The translations under genes were made by a program, and so were the position numbers. The notes below the pieces were generated by a model, which did no database searches, was not told where the DNA came from, and saw only the letters and a list, made by a program, of their open reading frames with translations. From Lachnospiraceae bacterium (lineage in GTDB: Bacteria > Bacillota > Clostridia > Lachnospirales > Lachnospiraceae): a DNA stretch of 64,000 bases. The number at the start of each line of letters is the position of its first letter. The stretch's first letter is position 1. The DNA lies in contig JAFUIR010000011.1 of the NCBI GenBank assembly GCA_017468395.1, positions 186,001 to 250,000 of the forward strand. Direction: 5' to 3'. Positions 17,428-29,555 of the stretch are shown piece by piece.

Positions 17428-18138
17428 AATGCAAAATGTGAGATAAAAAGTGTTACCATTCCGGGCAGCGTAAAGCTTATAGATCGGTCAACTTTTGCCG
17501 GTTGTAAAAAATTAGATACAGTAATTATAGAAGATGGTGTGATAACCATTGGGTACATGGCGTTTTGGAATTGTGTCAATCTCCGTAGCGTAGAAATACC
17601 CGACAGTTTGCTCCGTATCGAAGACAGTGCATTTTCGTCTTGTAGCAGTCTGAAAAAAATAAATATTCCCGATAGTGTTGAAGATATAGCAGAAGATGCT
17701 TTTCTGGGCTGTGATAATCTGGCGGACAGGGAAATGACGGCGCAAATTGAATATGACAGAAGCCGGGAGTATTGGAGCGGTTGGATTTTGGCCTACTATC
17801 AGTGGTATACGGGAAAGAGTTTCAAAGACATTTTTGAGCGCCTTCCCATGAGTGAAGTTCAGCGCTTGTACCCGACTTTGCATGAGGCATCGGAAAGCAA
17901 GTTTGTGGATGTGGCAGATAAAATATGTTTTTTGGAAGCATCGGACACTAAACTGAAAAAAATCCGTAAGAGCAGTGGCTACTCCCAACGTGAATTGGCG
18001 GAGAAGTCAGGGGTTAGTATCAGGATGATTCAACAGTATGAGATAAAAGCAAAAGACATAAATAAGGCAGCAGGAGAGACTTTGATGGCTCTTTCCAGAG
18101 TTTTGGGCTGCACAGTGGAGGACCTTTTGGAAGTATGA
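17428..18138 (+). pseudogene. 5'-truncated LRR_5 / XRE-family fusion gene
   Basis: The frame is open from the stop at 17425-17427 to 18138 and encodes about four BspA-type LRR_5 repeats (SVTIPGSVKLID, IIEDGVITIGYMAFWNC, VEIPDSLLRIEDSAFSSC, INIPDSVEDIAEDAFLGC). The first start codon of any kind is GTG at 17539, in the middle of the repeats and without a good ribosome-binding site, so the true beginning is missing. After the repeats comes a YWSGWILAYYQWYTGKSFKDI..YPTLHEA segment known from a common Firmicutes regulator family, then an XRE helix-turn-helix (LKKIRKSSGYSQRELAEKSG..IQQYE). The protein is thus a fusion of an LRR part with the C-terminal two-thirds of a regulator. The last bases overlap the GH3 start (ATGA). 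A functional shorter product from 17539 is possible. Confidence 0.7.
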
Positions 18139-20389: not shown

Positions 20390-20418
20390 AACCCGGTGGA
20401 GCAATCTGCCGGGTTTTT
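20390..20418 (+). terminator. Intrinsic terminator after the GH3 gene
   Basis: AACCCGG (20390-20396) pairs with CCGGGTT (20409-20415) and is followed by TTTG. Confidence 0.75.
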
Positions 20419-20473
20419 GTACTTTTGGAGTGTTTGGCAGTTTGGGAAAAGGCGCTTATCAGAGAGAAATGCC

Positions 20474-20502
20474 TTGCATAACTTTTGCACAGAAGATATA
20501 AT
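20474..20502 (+). promoter_or_regulatory. Promoter for the thioesterase-cvfB-NACHT directon
   Basis: TTGCAT (20474-20479), 17-base spacer, TATAAT (20497-20502), about 85 bases before the thioesterase start. No terminator is evident before 26616, so it may drive four genes. Confidence 0.6.
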
Positions 20503-20599
20503 TACTACATGCGTACAATGCCGAAAATAGGCTGAAAATCGGCAAACTGGCAGGGCTTAATTGTTTGGTAAAAACAAAGTCTCATAACAGGAGGACGGG

Positions 20600-21313
20600 A
20601 TGTATACTTTTGACAGCAGAATCAGATATAGTGAGAGCGACGGCGAAGCAAAACTTTCACTGGAAGGACTTATAGATTATTTTCAGGACGCATCTACCTT
20701 TCATTCAGAGGATTTGGGTCTGGGGATTCATTATCTAAAAGAGGAACAGAAATTGTGGGTTCTTTCTGCGTGGCAGATTGTGGTGGACAGGTATCCGGCC
20801 ATGGGCGAACGCGTGGTTATAGGAACATTTCCTTACGATTTTAAGGGCTGTTTTGGCAGCAGAAATTTCTTTTTGAAGAGTGAAAGCGGGGAATTTCTGG
20901 CAAAGGCCAATTCCATCTGGACACTTTTGGATTTACAAAACCAGCGCCCTACCAAACCCACTCCTATTATGCTGGAAAAGTATGCCTTGGAAGAAAAATT
21001 GGACATGGAATATGCGCCCCGTAAAATCGAGGTGCCAAAGGGTGGCAGCACCCGGGAAGCAATTTTGGTGCACAGACACCATCTGGATACCAATAACCAT
21101 GTAAATAACGGACAATATGTGCGCATGGCCATGGAATATCTGCCGGAAGACTTTAAAATCGGTCAGATGCGTGCGGAATATAAAAAACAGGCACTGCTTG
21201 GTGATGTGCTTTATCCGCAGGTGGTTTTGCAGGAGGGATTATGTGTGGTATCTCTTGAGGATGCGCAGGGCGCAGTGTATGTAAATGTAGAGTTTAAGAA
21301 GGCGGACGAATAG
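20600..21313 (+). CDS. Acyl-ACP thioesterase
   Basis: 237 residues with two hot-dog folds (FatA/FatB-like). The first repeat reads MYTFDSRIRYSESDGEAKLSLEGLIDYFQDAS-like, and the second carries the catalytic region HLDTNNHVNNGQYVRMA. It hydrolyses acyl-ACP to free fatty acid, which limits or tunes chain length. GGAGGACGGG precedes the start. The next gene begins immediately after its stop. Confidence 0.9.
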   Translation: MYTFDSRIRYSESDGEAKLSLEGLIDYFQDASTFHSEDLGLGIHYLKEEQKLWVLSAWQIVVDRYPAMGERVVIGTFPYDFKGCFGSRNFFLKSESGEFLAKANSIWTLLDLQNQRPTKPTPIMLEKYALEEKLDMEYAPRKIEVPKGGSTREAILVHRHHLDTNNHVNNGQYVRMAMEYLPEDFKIGQMRAEYKKQALLGDVLYPQVVLQEGLCVVSLEDAQGAVYVNVEFKKADE

Positions 21314-22150
21314 ATGTTAAAATTAGGTGAAAAGCAAGTGTTGGAAGTTGTTAAAAAAGTGGAATTCGGGGTGTATTTGGCGGCTTTGGATGGTGATATG
21401 CAGGAGAAGGTTTTACTTCCTGTTAAGCAGGTACCGGATGGAACGGGCATAGGGACAAAACTGGAGGTGTTTTTGTACCGTGATTCCAAGGATCGTATCA
21501 TTGCCACTACCGCAACTCCTCTTTTGGAAATGGGAAAGGTTGCCCGGCTTAAGGTGGCAGAAGTGGCGAAAATAGGTGCTTTTTTGGATTGGGGACTGGA
21601 AAAAGATTTGCTGCTTCCTTTCAAGCAGCAGACCTATCGCGTGAAAGCAGGAGATACTCCTTTGGTTTCCCTTTATATTGATAAAAGTAACAGGTTGTGC
21701 GCTACCATGAATGTATATCCCAATTTGCGCCAGGACAGTCCTTATGAGAAAGATGCAAGGGTCAGCGGACAGGTTTATGAGATTAGCGACAATTTTGGTG
21801 CATTTGTGGCAGTGGATGATTTATACAGCGGATTGATTCCCAAGAAGGAACTTTACGGGGAAATCAAGCCCGGCGATATGGTAGATGCCAGAGTGACGGA
21901 AGTAAAAGAGGATGGAAAACTGAATCTCAGCATCCGAGAGAAGGCTTATCTGCAAATTGGGGAAGATGCGGAGAAAATCATGGAACTTATTGAAAGTTAT
22001 GACGGCGTTTTGCCTTTTACGGAAAAGGCTTCACCGGATGTTATCCGCAGGGAAACGGATATGAGTAAAAATGAGTTTAAACGTGCGGTAGGGAATCTTT
22101 TAAAAAACGGACGTATTGAAATTAAAGAGGGTATTATTCGCAAAAAATAG
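21314..22150 (+). CDS. cvfB: S1 RNA-binding protein, CvfB/YitL family
   Basis: 278 residues: three S1-like OB domains (first about 5-65 with GVYLAAL; second about 75-135 with LKVAEVAKIGAFLDWGLEKDLLLPF; third about 150-215 with GQVYEISDNFGAFVAVDDLYSGLIPKKEL) and a C-terminal winged helix (DMSKNEFKRAVGNLLKNGRIEI). CvfB in staphylococci binds RNA and affects virulence gene expression. The start codon is directly after the thioesterase stop. Confidence 0.9.
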   Translation: MLKLGEKQVLEVVKKVEFGVYLAALDGDMQEKVLLPVKQVPDGTGIGTKLEVFLYRDSKDRIIATTATPLLEMGKVARLKVAEVAKIGAFLDWGLEKDLLLPFKQQTYRVKAGDTPLVSLYIDKSNRLCATMNVYPNLRQDSPYEKDARVSGQVYEISDNFGAFVAVDDLYSGLIPKKELYGEIKPGDMVDARVTEVKEDGKLNLSIREKAYLQIGEDAEKIMELIESYDGVLPFTEKASPDVIRRETDMSKNEFKRAVGNLLKNGRIEIKEGIIRKK

Positions 22151-22179
22151 GATTGGGTACGAAAGAGAAGGAATACGAA

Positions 22180-23748
22180 ATGCAGATAAAAGAGTTGGTA
22201 AATGCAGTCAGAGACTTGGTAAAAAGACCTTTGGGTATCAAAAAACTACAGGAGGGAAAACAGGCGTTTCAGGATTTTTTGGAGACAGAGTGCGCTGTGT
22301 CCGGTTATGGAAAAAAGTGTGTTGCCCATCTGGAGGAAATTGTAGACGAAAACCTGCTGGCTGTTAAGATGCCTGCAACCAGCGAGGCTCTGCAGGAAGA
22401 GGTTCTGTGGGCAAAAGAAGTGTGGGAAAAGATTCAGAGTTATTCCGTGGATGAGGGCGCAGATGAACAAAAAGAATCCCTTTTGGCTCAATATGAATTG
22501 GTGGACAGTCTTTGGAACGGTCAGTTAAGCCCTGTGGAAATATCTGACGGAGAAGAAATAAAAAAGGCAGTGACGGCGCTGTTTGTTGTGCTTGTGAACG
22601 CATGCAGAGTGCGCGCTTTGAGCATTAAGAAGGGCTATGTGAATAACCTGATCCGCAAAATTAATATCGGTGATTATTGTCTGGAAAAAATGGAAGGAGA
22701 AAATGACTATACCGATGAAAATGGTCGTTTTCAAGAGATTCAGGAGCATTTCTTACAATTGCAATGGGGTGGCGAATCAAATCTTCCGATCAATATTAAC
22801 GATGAAGAGGGTTCTTTTAAATTACTGGGGGAGGCCGGCTGCGGTAAGACAACTCAGGCCAGAGAATACTATAGGCAGGCTCTGGAGCGGGGGGCTTATG
22901 ATGAAGATGTTCTGCCCATATGGATTTCCCTGCGCTTACTGGAAGAAGAACAATTAAATAACTTTAAGCAGGTGTTGATTGATTGTATCGGCAAGCCTAT
23001 TACGGAAGAAGATTTTGATTTGCTTGTGAGAGAAGGCATTATTATGCTGTTTTTGGACGGTTACAACGAAGTAATCGGAAGCACGGAAAAACAGATTGCC
23101 AAGAGAAATCTGGCGCGGACCATTGAAAGTATGTACAGAGCCCGTACAAGCGGCGGTCAGGGTGGCAAAGGTGCCCAGATTATTATGACTGACCGAATTA
23201 ACGAATCTACTCCTTCCTGTCTGGAGAGAATACCTTACTATAGGTTGCAGCGCATGGACGACGAGGCGATTGTTGCCTACATGAAAATGTATATGGACGA
23301 TGCTGTACAACTGGAAGAGGCCGAGAAATATGTGGCTGAACTGCAAAAAGATGATGTAGATATTTTTATTCCGGCAAAAATCAATATGATTATAGAGTGT
23401 GCTACCGGGCAAAAAGATTTCCCGGCTCCCGGCAGGATGAATTTCGAAAAGGCATACCTGGATTATATTTTGGATCGTGAACGCATTGAAAAGAAAGAAA
23501 ATGTCAGAGTGTTTAAGGATATGTTTTATCTTGTTGCCAATGCTATGGACGGTCCGGAGGCTGCTAAAACAAAAGCAGAAATTAATGATATTTGGAATGA
23601 ACGTCGCTCACTGGATGACCATGAGGCGGACAGAATTCTTCTTTTGGCGGTGGAGATGGGAATTTTGATTGAGTCCCATAGCGGAAGCCGGATAGAGTAT
23701 AGTTTTAGCTGTAAGGCGTACTATTCTTATTTTAAAGAACAGGCGTAG
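22180..23748 (+). CDS. NACHT-type STAND NTPase
   Basis: About 522 residues. Residues 1-200 are helical and without a domain I recognise. The NTPase core has Walker A GEAGCGKTTQ at 217-226 and a NACHT-style Walker B IMLFLDGYNE at 288-297 (Asp293, second acidic residue Glu297), a sensor-1-like IIMTDR and a helical C-terminal part ending FSCKAYYSYFKEQA. There is no fused TIR, nuclease or repeat domain, unlike most NLR-like defence proteins. A TTG at 22153 could start nine residues earlier; AGAAGGA before ATG 22180 favours the latter. The next gene begins 12 bases downstream, so the two products probably act as partners. Confidence 0.8.
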   Translation: MQIKELVNAVRDLVKRPLGIKKLQEGKQAFQDFLETECAVSGYGKKCVAHLEEIVDENLLAVKMPATSEALQEEVLWAKEVWEKIQSYSVDEGADEQKESLLAQYELVDSLWNGQLSPVEISDGEEIKKAVTALFVVLVNACRVRALSIKKGYVNNLIRKINIGDYCLEKMEGENDYTDENGRFQEIQEHFLQLQWGGESNLPININDEEGSFKLLGEAGCGKTTQAREYYRQALERGAYDEDVLPIWISLRLLEEEQLNNFKQVLIDCIGKPITEEDFDLLVREGIIMLFLDGYNEVIGSTEKQIAKRNLARTIESMYRARTSGGQGGKGAQIIMTDRINESTPSCLERIPYYRLQRMDDEAIVAYMKMYMDDAVQLEEAEKYVAELQKDDVDIFIPAKINMIIECATGQKDFPAPGRMNFEKAYLDYILDRERIEKKENVRVFKDMFYLVANAMDGPEAAKTKAEINDIWNERRSLDDHEADRILLLAVEMGILIESHSGSRIEYSFSCKAYYSYFKEQA

Positions 23749-23760
23749 GAGGAACTTGTA

Positions 23761-26616
23761 TTGTTGACATATGAAGAAATGCAGCAAGAACTTGAAGGCT
23801 GCAGTGACAGCGAGTTGCGCACAAAGTGCAAAGAATATGCAAAGCAGGATTTGGAAGAAGGTTTTTTGGCAGTGCGCTATGTATGGGAAAAAAAGACCCC
23901 TTATGAAGCGGCTACAATGGTAAATAACAGACATTTTTGCACGGCACAGGTGCGTAGGGAATTGAGTGAAAAATTGTTTGATGCATACCGTGGGCAAATG
24001 CGTAAAGTGATTTGCGGAAGCCATGAAGAGACGGCTTTAAACATGATAGAAACTCTTTTGCATCTTACATACAGCTTTCCGATGGAAAGAACCGTGGAGG
24101 TTTGGAGACAAATAGGGGAAAACAAAAGTGCTGTTATTTCCGAACGCTGCGCAAAACAATTAAGCGCATGTTTTGAAAGCAGGGATTTTCCGGCAGTGGT
24201 ACTGTATCCGAAAAATCTGTATGCAATTTATAAAGTCTGCTCCCAGAAAAATCAGAAATGGTTTCTGAGAATGACGGAGATAAGTCTGAAAAATGCCTGC
24301 CAAAGTGAAAAGTGTGTTTTAAACTATAAAAAAGTAAAAATTATGGCAGAAGAAAATCCGGACTTGATGAAAGAATACAGGCAGTATTTGGAACTTCTTT
24401 TGGAAAAGGATTTATCTCAGGAAGCGGGCAGATTTATTGAGCGTCTGGATGATTATTACAAATATGAGGAAACGCCCTTTGGTTATACAAGGGAAGAGTG
24501 GAAGCGTCTGTTTTGTGCCTCGGATGTTACGAGGCTGATAGAGGCTTATTTCCGGTGCGAAAACAGCGGAGGCAGAACCTACACCGTGCAACAGTTGGAA
24601 GAGGATGTATATTCTGTGGAATCCGGCGAATTTGCAAGGTGCTGGGTAAAAATTCTGCGTGTTTTCAGTGAACTGAAAGAATTGTTGGATAAGAGCGAAG
24701 AAGAATTTAGAAACGGATTGGAAGTGCTGAAGGATTGTGAAATGTTCAGCATGGAGACTCAGTTGTACTATATTCCCATTGCCATTGTGCAGGCCGGTAT
24801 CATTAATACTTTGATTGAACGGGAAAGTCCCTGCCTTATGGAATACTTTAGGACCGTGGGAGATAAGAATGTTTATCTGTTCAAGTACCGGAAAGTAATA
24901 AAGGGGCATATGGAACTGGATGAAGTTAAGATGGATTATGAAACCAGGATTAAGCCCTGCCTGCTTGCCTTGAAAAACAAAGAAGAACTGGTGGAATTAT
25001 ATATGAATTCCCACTTAAGATATTACATTGATATCAATGATGTAGTCCGCAATTGTGCAAAATACAGTCCTAAAGGTAATGTGTACAACCTGTTTAAAGA
25101 TTATGAAATTGCGGGAAAAATCACCAGGGTGGAAAACCGTGGTTATAAGATGATGGTACAGCCCAGTCCTCTGGTGGCTTATATTGTCCGGGACAAATCC
25201 GGAGAGGAGTCTTTTTCCAGGGAAGTTATGGGGCAGGCAGAGATAAACCGCAACTGGCAGTATGCCAATATGAAAAAATTGGATTATGCCAAGTTGGGAG
25301 ACTATTGTGTATACAAGTACGAGAGAGTGCGGGATCATGTGATTATCGTCACGGATGTTGTGATTAAGAATGAAAAACATGAACCGTTCAGTCAGGAGGA
25401 AAGCGATGAGCGCCGCCAAAAGTTCCTGGAAGTGGTTTATAAATGGCTGGATAAAGTGGAGGAAACAGGAGAAAGCATTGAATTTCTCGGAAACGAAGGA
25501 GACGGTTTTTTTGATTATGACGCTCCTGTCAGATGTGCTTGTCCGTCTTATTTGGCAGATACACCACAGATGCTTTACGTCCGTGAAAAATTAGCGGAGC
25601 GGATTGTGGAAGTAGTAGCGGGTTTGAAAGGCAGAACCATTGATGCGGTGTTAGCTCAGCTAACCAAAATGTTCCTGAAAGAAGTGGATGAATGCCGTTT
25701 TATTCCCAGTCAGTCCAAAGCCAACATGGGCTCTATTAAAAATCCCGAGATTAGGGAGAATATCAGAGCTTGCGCAAAAAGGTTTCTCAACAGGGAAGAT
25801 GTTTTGGTGGAACAGAAATTTCTTGTGTTTTTTAATACAGCCATGAAATTGGTATGTCCCGTGGAAAGTCTGGCTACTTTGGGAGATGCAAAACTGTGTG
25901 AATATGTGCAAAACCATGGCATCGAGGAATATACTATCCCTGTGCGGTTTGATGGGATGCGAAAATGCTTTGTGCAGACCTGGAAAAATTATAAGGAATA
26001 TTTGCCTTACTATACAGAATATCGTTTTGAATATGAGGGCGAAAAGGATTTTGACCCGAGAGCACAATGGTTTGCGGGTGTTGGGAAAATATTGCCCAAG
26101 GAGAGAACGATTGTACTGAATAATATTTGGGACAAAGATGCGGTAAAAGGAGAAGTACAGGAATATCTCCGGTTGTTTTATGATTTGCGCCGTGCCCAAA
26201 GTTACGAAATAGGATTAGAGAGATTTGGTGAAAATAAGCCCAAAAGAAAAATTGGTTTTGGGTCTTCTACAGTGCGCTATGTGCGGGAATTTACGGATAC
26301 AATCCGGGGAATTTTTGAAAAGCAAAGATACTGTGCGGAAGAGTGTCTGTGGTTGTTGGAGTACATGGAGCAGGATGTAAATAACAATCCGTATACCTGC
26401 AGTGAAGGTAAGCCATGGGTGCAAGAGGCTTTTGATGCGGATAACAGTTTACACAGTATTGTGGAGAAGGCGTGGAAAGGAATGCTTACCGCCCTGACAG
26501 AGCAGAAAGAGGCTATCAGCACTATCAAAGCGGTTTATGAAAAGTCTTTCTTTGCATACTACATTTCCGAAGAGAGGTTTGCTCAGGACCTGGCAGACAT
26601 CGGCTACAAAATATAA
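23761..26616 (+). CDS. Large orphan protein, partner of the NACHT NTPase
   Basis: 951 residues from a TTG start, fixed by AGGAGGA at 23747-23753 seven bases upstream. I do not recognise the family. Residues 1-430 are helical with a repeat-like look (short amphipathic helices, many Cys and Tyr). Residues about 440-535 look like an OB/S1-type barrel (IAGKITRVENRGYKMMV..LGDYCVYKYERV..VIIVTDVV). Residues 540-951 are again mainly helical and contain no catalytic motif I can name. There is no signal peptide or membrane helix. Coupling to the NACHT gene suggests that this is the sensor or effector half of a two-protein system; that is inference. Confidence 0.75.
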   Translation: MLTYEEMQQELEGCSDSELRTKCKEYAKQDLEEGFLAVRYVWEKKTPYEAATMVNNRHFCTAQVRRELSEKLFDAYRGQMRKVICGSHEETALNMIETLLHLTYSFPMERTVEVWRQIGENKSAVISERCAKQLSACFESRDFPAVVLYPKNLYAIYKVCSQKNQKWFLRMTEISLKNACQSEKCVLNYKKVKIMAEENPDLMKEYRQYLELLLEKDLSQEAGRFIERLDDYYKYEETPFGYTREEWKRLFCASDVTRLIEAYFRCENSGGRTYTVQQLEEDVYSVESGEFARCWVKILRVFSELKELLDKSEEEFRNGLEVLKDCEMFSMETQLYYIPIAIVQAGIINTLIERESPCLMEYFRTVGDKNVYLFKYRKVIKGHMELDEVKMDYETRIKPCLLALKNKEELVELYMNSHLRYYIDINDVVRNCAKYSPKGNVYNLFKDYEIAGKITRVENRGYKMMVQPSPLVAYIVRDKSGEESFSREVMGQAEINRNWQYANMKKLDYAKLGDYCVYKYERVRDHVIIVTDVVIKNEKHEPFSQEESDERRQKFLEVVYKWLDKVEETGESIEFLGNEGDGFFDYDAPVRCACPSYLADTPQMLYVREKLAERIVEVVAGLKGRTIDAVLAQLTKMFLKEVDECRFIPSQSKANMGSIKNPEIRENIRACAKRFLNREDVLVEQKFLVFFNTAMKLVCPVESLATLGDAKLCEYVQNHGIEEYTIPVRFDGMRKCFVQTWKNYKEYLPYYTEYRFEYEGEKDFDPRAQWFAGVGKILPKERTIVLNNIWDKDAVKGEVQEYLRLFYDLRRAQSYEIGLERFGENKPKRKIGFGSSTVRYVREFTDTIRGIFEKQRYCAEECLWLLEYMEQDVNNNPYTCSEGKPWVQEAFDADNSLHSIVEKAWKGMLTALTEQKEAISTIKAVYEKSFFAYYISEERFAQDLADIGYKI

Positions 26617-26668
26617 GCGTAAAATAAAGAGTATATGAAATAAAATTTTGTATCAGGTGTCCGTTGTC

Positions 26669-27895
26669 CTATTTATGCAGTTTCCGGCTGAGGAATAACA
26701 GCAGTTTTTTTCCTGCGAAAGCCAGTGCCGCAATTCCGGTTACTACCAGTACAATGGAGGTAACAATTCCAAGGACAGGCGGGTTTTCAGAATTTAACGT
26801 TTGGTCTAAACTCAGTCCCATTGCTATGGTGTCGAATAAGGATAAGGAGCCGAAAATAACCAAAAAGGTATTCATGGCCGAAGCATTCTTTTTGGAAGCT
26901 TCCTCGTCCAAGGTAAAAAGTAAGGTGGACAAATTTTTTTCCATTTCGTCCAATTGCAAAATGACTTCCAGTTCCTCGTAAATTTTTTGGAAATATTCAT
27001 CGTCTGTAACAATGGGATACTGTTTGGTGCCCATGTAACTAAGCATTTCTTTTTTCATGGTACCGGCCTTTCTGGGATGGTATTCCAGATTCTTCATTTT
27101 GCGGTAAATGCCCAGCAAAGACTGATGTTTGCTAATGGCAATGAGGAAGACGGTGCTCAGGGAATTGCAGGTGTCTGCATAAAAAGAATCTTCGCCGTTT
27201 TCCGTGGAGGCGTTGCAGTACACATGCAGATTGTACTGGGAAATGTAGCAAAAGGTGCCGGGAATTCCGCCTTTTTTTAGCGGAGCAGAGCCTTCTGTTA
27301 CGCCTGCAATTTCGGTTTTTTGCTTGTCCTGAATAAGGGACATATTTTGAAAACTGGAAAAAACAAAGGGGCGTTTGCGGCGGTTGTTTGGAAACAGGGT
27401 AATGCCGTAGGCGCTGTTTGCAAGTTCCAGTGATGATTCGATAAATTGTTTGAGGGATATTTTTTCTGTTTCACCTGCGGATAACTCTAAAGAAGAATTT
27501 TGGGTAAACAGATTTTTAACCTGCCCGTGAAAAACAGCAATTTCCTTTCCGTCCGGTGCAGATTCATTTTCTGTGAGAGGATAGGAATAATTTATGATAA
27601 AAAATCCAAGCCCGGTAGAAAAAAGATACAGTTCTGCGCCGCAGTAGGTAAAGGTTTTTCTTGTTTCTCCTGCCCAAAAGGTGATCCGGTCATATGTGGA
27701 GAGATTTTGATGGGAAAACCGGGCTGCACTGTTTAAGTCGCTCAAGGCGTGTCTGTACAATAAGTCCGGCTCTGTGGGAGCAGCGTTTTTCTGCCAGTGG
27801 GAAGATGTATTTAAATGTTTGGTGAATTTTTTTACCTTACCGGATTCAAAAGGTATGATGATTTGCTCCATACTCATTCTTTTGTCTGTTGCCAT
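26669..27895 (-). CDS. Orphan protein with two C-terminal membrane helices
   Basis: 408 residues, convergent with the NACHT pair (52 bases between stops). Residues 1-300 are soluble-looking with no family I recognise. Residues about 300-345 could form a coiled coil (EYFQKIYEELEVILQLDEMEKN). Two hydrophobic segments follow, about 346-368 and 374-400, separated by a short loop, and the protein ends basic (LLFLSRKLHK). This topology (cytosolic domain, helical neck, paired C-terminal helices) recalls CorA-type channels, but the GMN motif is absent. AAGGAGG lies five bases before ATG. No terminator is obvious in the 52-base gap. Confidence 0.7.
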   Translation of the reverse strand: MATDKRMSMEQIIIPFESGKVKKFTKHLNTSSHWQKNAAPTEPDLLYRHALSDLNSAARFSHQNLSTYDRITFWAGETRKTFTYCGAELYLFSTGLGFFIINYSYPLTENESAPDGKEIAVFHGQVKNLFTQNSSLELSAGETEKISLKQFIESSLELANSAYGITLFPNNRRKRPFVFSSFQNMSLIQDKQKTEIAGVTEGSAPLKKGGIPGTFCYISQYNLHVYCNASTENGEDSFYADTCNSLSTVFLIAISKHQSLLGIYRKMKNLEYHPRKAGTMKKEMLSYMGTKQYPIVTDDEYFQKIYEELEVILQLDEMEKNLSTLLFTLDEEASKKNASAMNTFLVIFGSLSLFDTIAMGLSLDQTLNSENPPVLGIVTSIVLVVTGIAALAFAGKKLLLFLSRKLHK

Positions 27896-27994
27896 GGCTG
27901 CCTCCTTAGTGTACCCAATGATTTATGCATTTACTATATCATAGACGGGTGATAAAAGACAATCATTTCGGCGGGATAAAGGGTGATGAAAGTA

Positions 27995-28022
27995 TAGGGA
28001 AAAAACCTGATTAAGCCGATAT
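27995..28022 (+). promoter_or_regulatory. Sigma-D (sigma-28) flagellar-type promoter of yjfB
   Basis: An exact GCCGATAT -10 element lies at 28015-28022; the -35 region TAGGGAAA (27995-28002) is a partial match to TAAAGTTT with a 12-base spacer. Start codon of yjfB is at 28091. The downstream leader can fold into a hairpin (AAAGG..CCTTT around two CCGG elements). Confidence 0.65.
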
Positions 28023-28090
28023 ATATAATGAAAGGTATTCCGGTTATGGCCGGATCTGGCCTTTCTAATACAAAGAGAGGAGGCAACATC

Positions 28091-28282
28091 ATGGATGTAG
28101 CAGCAGTTTCTATGGCACTGGCGAATATTGAACTTGGCACCAAAGTGGGCACAGCAATGCTTGACAAGGCTATGAACACCAATGAAGAGTTGGCAAGCGG
28201 ATTGATTCAGATGATTGACTCCGCAGCAATGGAACGTTCGGTTAACCCGAATGTGGGAGGCAATCTGGACATTAGAATCTAA
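28091..28282 (+). CDS. YjfB-family putative motility protein
   Basis: 63 residues: MDVAAVSMALANIELGTKVGTAML..TNEELASGLIQMIDSAAMERSVNPNVGGNLDIRI, matching the small YjfB family, whose members sit in sigma-D regulons. Exact function is unknown. GAGAGGAGG is placed correctly for the ATG at 28091; a longer frame from 28028 has no ribosome-binding site and overlaps the promoter. The sigma-D promoter upstream supports membership in the flagellar/motility regulon. Confidence 0.85.
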   Translation: MDVAAVSMALANIELGTKVGTAMLDKAMNTNEELASGLIQMIDSAAMERSVNPNVGGNLDIRI

Positions 28283-28302
28283 CTCTTTGTAGAAAACCAC
28301 AA

Positions 28303-28336
28303 AAGGCGTCTGCCACAAGGCAGGCGTTCTTTTTTG
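28303..28336 (+). terminator. Intrinsic terminator after yjfB
   Basis: GCGTCTGCC-ACAA-GGCAGGCGT hairpin (28306-28327) with one G-T pair, followed by TCTTTTTTG. yjfB is therefore monocistronic. Confidence 0.85.
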
Positions 28337-28469
28337 CAAATTTTCACAAAAAAATGTCATATTACTATGGATTTTTTTGTGGAAATGAATTAATATAAAA
28401 AATAGGTTATAGTCTTTTCTTGTAAAAGAAGAGTTTTGTGTTGTTAATTTTGCCAAAGGAGTGAAGCAA

Positions 28470-29555
28470 ATGATATCAAATCAAATTTTACAAAATACAC
28501 TTGATGGGCTTAAGGGGATTGCCAGAGTAGAATTTTGTGTTATGGATGTGGACGGAAAAGAAGTGGCATCTACCTCTGATATGAACGAATGTGCAAGGGC
28601 TGCAGTGGAGTTTGCAGATTCACCGGCGGATTCCCAGGAAATTCAGGGATACCAGTATTTCAAGATTTATGACGAGCAGCAACTGGAATACATATTGGTG
28701 GCCGGCGGAAGCGGAGAAGATGTTTATACTATCGGTAAGATGGTTGCCTTCCAAATCCAGAATCTTTTGGTGGCATATAAAGAGCGCTTCGATAAGGATA
28801 ACTTTATTAAGAACCTGCTGTTAGATAACCTCCTTTTGGTAGATATCTATAGCCGTTCTAAAAAATTACATATCCAGTCCGATGTGGGACGTGTTGTTTT
28901 GATTGTGGAATCTGAAAACGGAAAAGACAACAATGCCCTTGAAGTTGCGCGCACTCATTTTGGCTCTAACAACAAAGATTTTATCACGGCTGTAGATGAA
29001 AATAATGTGATTGTGGTGAAAGATCTGTCCGAGTCTGAGAGCACCAAAGAGATTGAAAAAGTGGCAAAAGCGTTGGAGACAACCCTGGCAAAAGAAGGCA
29101 TGAAAAAAATTCGTGTGGCATATGGCACAATTGTCCATGAAATTAAGGAAGTCAGCCGTTCCTATAAAGAGGCCAAAATGGCTTTGGATGTAGGAAAGAT
29201 TTTCTTTGATGAGAGAAATATTATTGCTTACAGCGAACTTGGTATCGGACGTCTGATCTATCAGTTACCGATTCCTCTTTGTAAAATGTTTATTAAAGAA
29301 ATTTTTGATGGAAAGAGCCCCGACGAATTTGACGAGGAAACTCTGACTACCATTTATAAATTCTTTGAGAACAGCCTGAATGTATCCGAAACATCCAGAC
29401 AATTGTTCATTCATAGAAATACTCTTGTTTACCGTCTGGATAAACTTCAAAAGAGCACAGGTCTGGATCTTCGCGTGTTTGAAGATGCGATTACATTCAA
29501 AATTGCACTCATGGTAGTAAAATACATGAGATATATGGAAACTTTTGAATACTAA
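28470..29555 (+). CDS. CdaR/PucR-type transcriptional regulator
   Basis: 361 residues. The N-terminal region resembles the sugar-diacid-recognition type sensor (MISNQILQNTLDGLKGIARVEFCVMDVDGKEVAST), the middle is a degenerate GGDEF-like CdaR domain (about 135-260), and the C-terminus is the PucR/CdaR helix-turn-helix (FFENSLNVSETSRQLFIHRNTLVYRLDKLQKSTGLDLR). The family activates genes for carboxylate, purine or diacid use; its effector here is unknown. AAAGGAG before ATG 28470 is preferred to the GTG at 28461, which overlaps that site. It lies directly before ftsE, 17 bases, so it may be part of that transcript. Confidence 0.87.
   Translation: MISNQILQNTLDGLKGIARVEFCVMDVDGKEVASTSDMNECARAAVEFADSPADSQEIQGYQYFKIYDEQQLEYILVAGGSGEDVYTIGKMVAFQIQNLLVAYKERFDKDNFIKNLLLDNLLLVDIYSRSKKLHIQSDVGRVVLIVESENGKDNNALEVARTHFGSNNKDFITAVDENNVIVVKDLSESESTKEIEKVAKALETTLAKEGMKKIRVAYGTIVHEIKEVSRSYKEAKMALDVGKIFFDERNIIAYSELGIGRLIYQLPIPLCKMFIKEIFDGKSPDEFDEETLTTIYKFFENSLNVSETSRQLFIHRNTLVYRLDKLQKSTGLDLRVFEDAITFKIALMVVKYMRYMETFEY

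Follow-up and report, generated by a model that had tools for sequence, protein, structure and literature searches.

A two-gene NACHT NTPase module inserted in a Lachnospiraceae genome, a possible split NLR-like conflict system

Bacterial NACHT (bNACHT) proteins are portrayed as single chains of three parts (PMC12169576), and HEPN domains are known in fusion with STAND-ATPase, TPR and S1 modules, some bacterial HEPN-STAND proteins ending in C-terminal cold-shock-like OB folds (Anantharaman et al. 2013, PMC3710099). Single-chain examples include Npun_F6454, MED222_16016, Desac_1927 and the Bacillus cereus protein gi 229028907 (PMC3710099). Here we describe two adjacent genes in a 64,000-nucleotide stretch of DNA from Lachnospiraceae bacterium (contig JAFUIR010000011.1, positions 186,001 to 250,000; the window), the first encoding a NACHT NTPase and the second a large partner protein. 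The two genes form a genuine module, present as an insertion in the genome of the window and scattered in its genus. We lean towards reading it as a horizontally moving conflict module resembling nucleotide-binding leucine-rich repeat receptors (NLRs), probably anti-phage, in which gene 2 would replace the fused sensor.

Gene 1 (22180..23748, plus strand) was delineated from the open reading frame (ORF) list, Pfam searches and a motif scan, and encodes a NACHT (STAND) NTPase of 522 residues; an alternative TTG start lies at 22153. It is followed by gene 2 (23761..26616, plus strand), which encodes a 951-residue protein of no recognized family, probably the sensor chain. The ORF list confirmed both lengths and the 12-base gap reported in the initial annotation of this DNA, and its assignment of gene 1 as a NACHT NTPase with GEAGCGKT and LFLDGYNE was borne out by the Pfam NACHT model PF05729 (29.8 bits, E 6.1e-7; cut-off 26.7) and by the motifs themselves. 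Walker A (GEAGCGKT at residue 217; 22828..22851, plus strand, as derived from the residue number), LFLDGYNE and TDR are all intact. Residues 473-518 match nSTAND_NTPase4 weakly (E 0.0044, below the Pfam cut-off), and an NTPase end motif, FSCKAYYSYF, can be recognized by eye, with the stop codon 4 residues later. At the junction (23746..23761, plus strand) the stop TAG is overlapped by an AGGAGG sequence (23747-23752) that ends 8 bases upstream of the TTG start of gene 2 at 23761. A second NACHT match in the same genome, on another contig, fell below the cut-off inside what reads by eye as an ABC-type ATPase, and was set aside as noise.

Searches for relatives of the pair used single sequences of the partner and the NACHT protein against 101 genomes of the genus, and a partner profile against 138 genomes including those. 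Besides the window, the single-sequence searches returned partner matches in two genomes (G350 and G364) and NACHT matches in three (G335, G350 and G386). The G364 match was rejected as noise (a 162-residue frame with an internal stop and no adjoining NACHT-like ORF of at least 150 residues), as was the G386 match, which by eye lies inside an ABC transporter. A same-order pair is present in G350 and G335, making three of 138 genomes of the genus with the window. The initial annotation had proposed gene co-occurrence as a check, and the order is the same in all three genus genomes in which either gene was confidently found. In G350 a 544-residue NACHT protein is followed on the same strand, after 79 bases, by a 1011-residue partner; in G335 a 661-residue NACHT protein is followed by a 1030-residue partner, also on the same strand, with a 0-base gap. 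NACHT and partner occupy separate ORFs in all three genomes, and Walker A and B motifs are present in all three NACHT proteins, that of G350 scoring 40.4 bits against Pfam NACHT. Identity to the window proteins is 25-27% for NACHT and 22-23% for the partner, which in all three carries the motif YMNSHLR (residue 414 in the window); no second YMNSHLR unit was found within the window partner.

The module is rare. A three-row partner profile recovered only the genome of the window among 348 drawn family-wide, and one of 348 phylum-wide, where there had been three before two noise matches were removed (G795, a gene that reads by eye as a U32-peptidase-like protein, and G554, a 67-residue frame with four stops). 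Since the profile was built from the three sequences it recovers, these counts show rarity and add no new members. Five pattern scans of viral contigs gave no relative of the pair; of two scans of genome contigs, one gave nothing and the other only the two known records, a roe-deer rumen Lachnospiraceae metagenome-assembled genome (MAG) and the bacterial MAG NALB_7861_1. No relative was found for the window NACHT protein in plasmid records, for the window partner in plasmids and phages, for the G335 partner in plasmids or for the G335 NACHT protein in phages; the G350 NACHT protein matched 30 plasmid records, of which three loci were read.

Comparison of the flanking sequences indicated that the pair is an insert. 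In the window, the cvfB stop codon (22150) is followed on the same strand by the NACHT ATG (22180), and a thioesterase gene also lies upstream. Of 18 relatives from the genus that were examined, all carrying cvfB, none has a counterpart of the block extending from the cvfB stop to a yjfB-like gene (22151..28090): the cvfB-yjfB distance is 5940 bp in the window vs. 17-202 bp in 16 of them. The thioesterase gene precedes cvfB in 17 of the 18, yjfB and/or PucR lies behind it in all 18, and neither NACHT nor partner was detected within 1.5-kb flanks of cvfB in any of them (E 1e-4). Three loci from other families were uninformative for the insertion. Because the pair is absent at this site in 18/18 relatives, it is taken as an insert outside the cvfB operon. 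The initial annotation had placed the pair in a housekeeping directon, which holds for the host operon upstream and fails for the pair inserted behind it. In the remaining two relatives cvfB is followed by a different gene, glycerophosphodiesterase-like by eye, with PucR at 956 and 962 bp; this gene swap marks the cvfB junction as variable.

We compared the end of gene 1 with longer NACHT proteins. A 1471-residue Rhizobium etli plasmid protein, WP_011053289, aligns to residues 221-531 of the 544-residue G350 NACHT protein and runs on for 958 residues past the aligned region, approximately the length of the separate partner, while the G350 gene 1 product extends only 13 residues beyond the alignment. 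The R. etli protein carries NCAB2 at its C-terminus (5.1e-28) and an HNH-like N-terminus (E 0.024, below cut-off). Alignments to Sinorhizobium and Leptolyngbya proteins stop earlier, leaving 699 and 410 residues. The window NACHT protein matched three other longer proteins, in the NTPase core only (0.005-0.017), and the partner profile found no match at E up to 100 in any of six longer NACHT proteins. As judged from these alignments, gene 1 appears to end close to the expected start of a sensor, and gene 2 to match the missing part approximately in length. The same-order co-occurrence in three genomes, together with a gene break close to where fused homologues pass from NTPase to sensor, supports the split NLR-like pair put forward in the initial annotation.

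The OB/S1 portion of that proposal was not confirmed. A central OB/S1-like region had been described in gene 2, and OB, S1 and cold-shock Pfam models matched none of four gene 2 segments, the sole hit being CHAP (E 0.033, below cut-off). An AlphaFold2 (AF2) model of gene 2 from the 3-row alignment had a predicted local distance difference test score (pLDDT) of 44 and a predicted template modeling score of 0.30; at such low confidence it is mostly helical, with strands between residues 453 and 536 where local pLDDT is only 24-37. Foldseek searches of PDB with this model and with that of the G350 N-terminus gave nothing at E ≤ 0.001 (the best 50 of 493 rows inspected for gene 2, and 50 of 147 for the N-terminus), the models being too weak to inform on folds. 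Gene 2 had also been described as unplaceable, and so it proved: Pfam, PADLOC and PHROGs gave no match to it, and NCBIfam (best E 0.52) and PDB sequences (best E 0.83) none above chance level. A housekeeping-family match for gene 2, set beforehand as a refutation, was not seen in the family-library searches. Weak PDB profile matches were not used as evidence; among them are PPR designs, which matched the partner at 0.0027 though no single stretch passed alone, and NLRC4 at 0.17. Gene 2 represents a large protein family with members found in three genomes only.

The region ahead of Walker A carries one R[ND]xxxH motif in each relative, RNSLIH at residue 141 in G350 and RNAASH at 243 in G335. 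Rx4-6H is the HEPN active site, and some HEPN domains have lost it (PMC3710099). The two motifs are aligned with each other, 107 and 114 residues ahead of Walker A, and in only 6 of 20000 shuffles did both lie within 10 residues of an equal Walker A distance, a control that strengthens the HEPN reading of the two relatives. The low-confidence AF2 model of the G350 N-terminus has a helix (128-145) and then a loop, which would place the motif (141-146) where PMC3710099 describes it. These motifs suggest that the N-terminal domain may have a HEPN fold. The window copy has no R[NDHE]x3-5H motif and neither R nor H in residues 98-118, the aligned place. The N-terminal domain of the window copy nonetheless aligns to the Rx4H domains of the two relatives, and no effector family was recognized by Pfam. 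The earlier statement that gene 1 has no effector domain of its own needs correcting, in that both relatives carry an N-terminal Rx4H which the window copy lacks at that place.

Set against described systems, the pair resembles the single-chain HEPN-STAND-TPR-S1 proteins, as far as they can be likened by description (PMC3710099), in its Rx4H domain (in the relatives), STAND/NACHT NTPase, helical stretches and possibly OB modules. It differs in that the parts lie on two chains and that the window copy has no Rx4H at its place. With bNACHT proteins and the R. etli protein it shares a NACHT module with an end motif and a domain in front, whereas there the C-terminal sensing region is on the same chain and here it would be a separate gene. 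In bNACHT clade 14 (SNaCT) no effector can be discerned either, but there is a domain at the C-terminus (PMC12169576). CoCoNuT systems share the theme of HEPN with cold-shock OB folds and have been proposed to target RNA (PMC11090510), and neither window protein has a Pfam match to their McrB-type GTPase or McrC. The G350 NACHT protein matches the NTPase part of PDC-S60, a candidate defence family in PADLOC (5.3e-8), whose single-chain model spans 1027 positions and leaves the window and G335 NACHT proteins unmatched. Since the window copy has neither a same-chain sensor nor the Rx4H, it is not classed as a bNACHT or HEPN member. No two-gene NACHT/partner arrangement of this kind was found in the searches made of the open-licence PubMed Central library; the fused HEPN-STAND architecture has been known since 2013, and the split and the partner family look new.

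As a model for how the pair might work, gene 1 would be the NTPase switch, a HEPN-derived N-terminal domain followed by a NACHT module that stops at the usual end-of-NTPase motif, and gene 2 would stand in for the C-terminal sensor, as a fast-evolving, mostly helical repeat protein with, perhaps, nucleic-acid-binding beta modules. The gene 2 product would bind both an infection signal and the NTPase module, and the NACHT module would oligomerize on ATP, gathering the N-terminal domains. In the relatives the gathered domains may act as a catalytic HEPN ribonuclease, cleaving RNA and arresting growth; the domain of the window copy would probably only dimerize or bind. As the Rx4H residues are gone at the aligned place in the window, its output would lie elsewhere, in gene 2 or a recruited protein, or be lost. 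What is observed comprises the pair with its co-occurrence and insertion, the motifs and the position of the chain break; the HEPN fold, complex formation, sensing, RNA cleavage and defence are each putative.

Several observations weigh against this split-receptor reading. An Rx4H motif taken alone is weak (it arises in 1334 and 713 of 20000 shuffles for G350 and G335), Pfam HEPN models gave no match at E up to 10, the G350 N-terminal model has a pLDDT of 40, and no recognizable HEPN was among the best 50 of 147 rows of its fold search. The window copy has a loose RFQEIQEH (Rx6H) at residues 183-190, in the linker ahead of Walker A and off the aligned place, so the motif is "lost" at the aligned place only. 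The G335 NACHT score (23.0 bits) is under the 26.7 cut-off, and the G350 and G335 partners, compared over the whole sequence, are not significantly similar to each other (E 16). Six other NACHT matches in the family sample have no partner among the ORFs read, with two of these lying less than 850 bases from the downstream contig end and only three re-scored at E ≤ 1. PADLOC models match neither gene of the window nor the G335 pair. Finally, the window NACHT protein failed to match the R. etli protein at E ≤ 1, which leaves G350 and the window end motif recognized by eye as the basis of the boundary argument; the missing match weakens that argument about as much as the motif control strengthens the HEPN reading.

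A toxin-antitoxin-like arrangement, in which gene 2 would restrain a NACHT protein acting as an RNA-cutting toxin of HEPN type, serving maintenance of the element and not sensing, draws on the Rx4H in both relatives, the adjacency of the genes in all three genomes and the inserted setting. We consider it unlikely, as a partner of 951-1030 residues would be large for an antitoxin, and the window copy has no motif, yet both ORFs are open. We give a similarly low chance to the window pair being a decaying, now functionless remnant of the module whose effector is gone. The missing R and H at the Rx4H place are what decay would leave, as is an N-terminus of 216 residues before Walker A, shorter than in both relatives (247 and 356); against this, the two long ORFs, the NTPase motifs and the ribosome-binding site are intact. 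A NACHT regulator of transcription or metabolism with a scaffold partner would have its model in the MalT-like STAND regulators. Bacterial STAND NTPases have been studied mainly as transcription regulators (PMC7159879), but neither protein has a DNA-binding family in Pfam and the distribution is rare and scattered, which makes this improbable. The least probable alternative, an endogenous RNA- or stress-sensing role in one operon with the S1 protein CvfB and the thioesterase, as the initial annotation had suggested from these neighbours and the tight same-strand spacing, is mostly refuted by the empty site in 18/18 relatives and by the different neighbours of the other two pairs.

Those other pairs adjoin MoxR/DUF2201-VWA genes (G350) or an AAA-ATPase_like/PDDEXK_9 gene. 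Directly upstream of the G350 NACHT gene, on the same strand and 48 bases away, lie genes for a MoxR ATPase and a DUF2201 zincin-VWA protein (L010:12015-14884, minus strand). MoxR-vWA pairs also occur outside conflict systems. Conflict systems that contain STAND NTPases include MoxR-vWA genes (PMC7159879), and MoxR, DUF2201-VWA, NACHT and partner are a possible four-gene cluster in G350. Behind the G335 pair lies a gene for a 1186-residue RNA-dependent RNA polymerase (RdRP; L011:504-4064, minus strand, equivalent to L020:12314-15874, plus strand, in the roe-deer rumen MAG), with a PF05183 match (2.3e-9) and the motif GGADYDGD. It is on the same strand as the partner, 261 bases on, and the gap holds promoter-like sequence by eye. 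Its relatives comprise 7 phage and 3 Bacillus plasmid records. The genome of the window had no PF05183 match, and as no control genome matched either, absence is not shown; against the G335 RdRP protein it also gave no match, with weaker relatives in 5 other of the 138 genomes. The RdRP link to the pair is a lead only. An RNA-surveillance NLR on separate chains, whose partner would bind foreign or aberrant RNA and license a HEPN-NACHT oligomer, with the adjacent two-barrel-type RdRP feeding or amplifying the signal in the roe-deer rumen MAG lineage and the RNase now a non-catalytic assembly domain in the window lineage, is a speculative elaboration to which we assign a very small chance.

In one record labelled Bacteriophage sp. 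(MT835651.1, 3489-9028) the RdRP is 32% identical over 53% of the query and sits between a 338-residue protein, nuclease-like by eye, and one of 342 residues. Transposase-like and bacterial-looking genes lie nearby, and the record may not be phage; no NACHT/partner pair stands beside its RdRP among the ORFs read.

The inserted block also contains orf408 (26669..27895, minus strand), convergent to the pair, which encodes an orphan protein of 408 residues whose single hydrophobic peak lies close to the C-terminus and was found in one of 138 genus genomes; its membership in the module is unproven. Between the partner and orf408 lies an inverted repeat with 17-nt arms, 82% complementary (26596..26661), a possible terminator. 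A 9-bp inverted repeat, ATTGGGTAC/GTACCCAAT (22152 and 27911), was rejected as the insertion ends, as a match of at least 9 arose in 82 of 500 shuffles and a third copy occurs in the window. No terminal repeats of the block were significant, its three ORFs matched no recombinase family in Pfam, and Rfam gave 0 matches over 20400-28600. Elsewhere in the window (17539-18138, plus strand), a 199-residue protein combines leucine-rich repeats of the BspA type (LRR_5) with a helix-turn-helix of the Cro/C1 type.

In single-chain receptors the signalling from recognition to the NTPase is hard to probe. With a natural split near this joint, sensor and switch could each be purified on its own, mixed and exchanged, and the window copy would be a case of an immune receptor whose presumed ribonuclease seems to be without an active site while the rest is intact.
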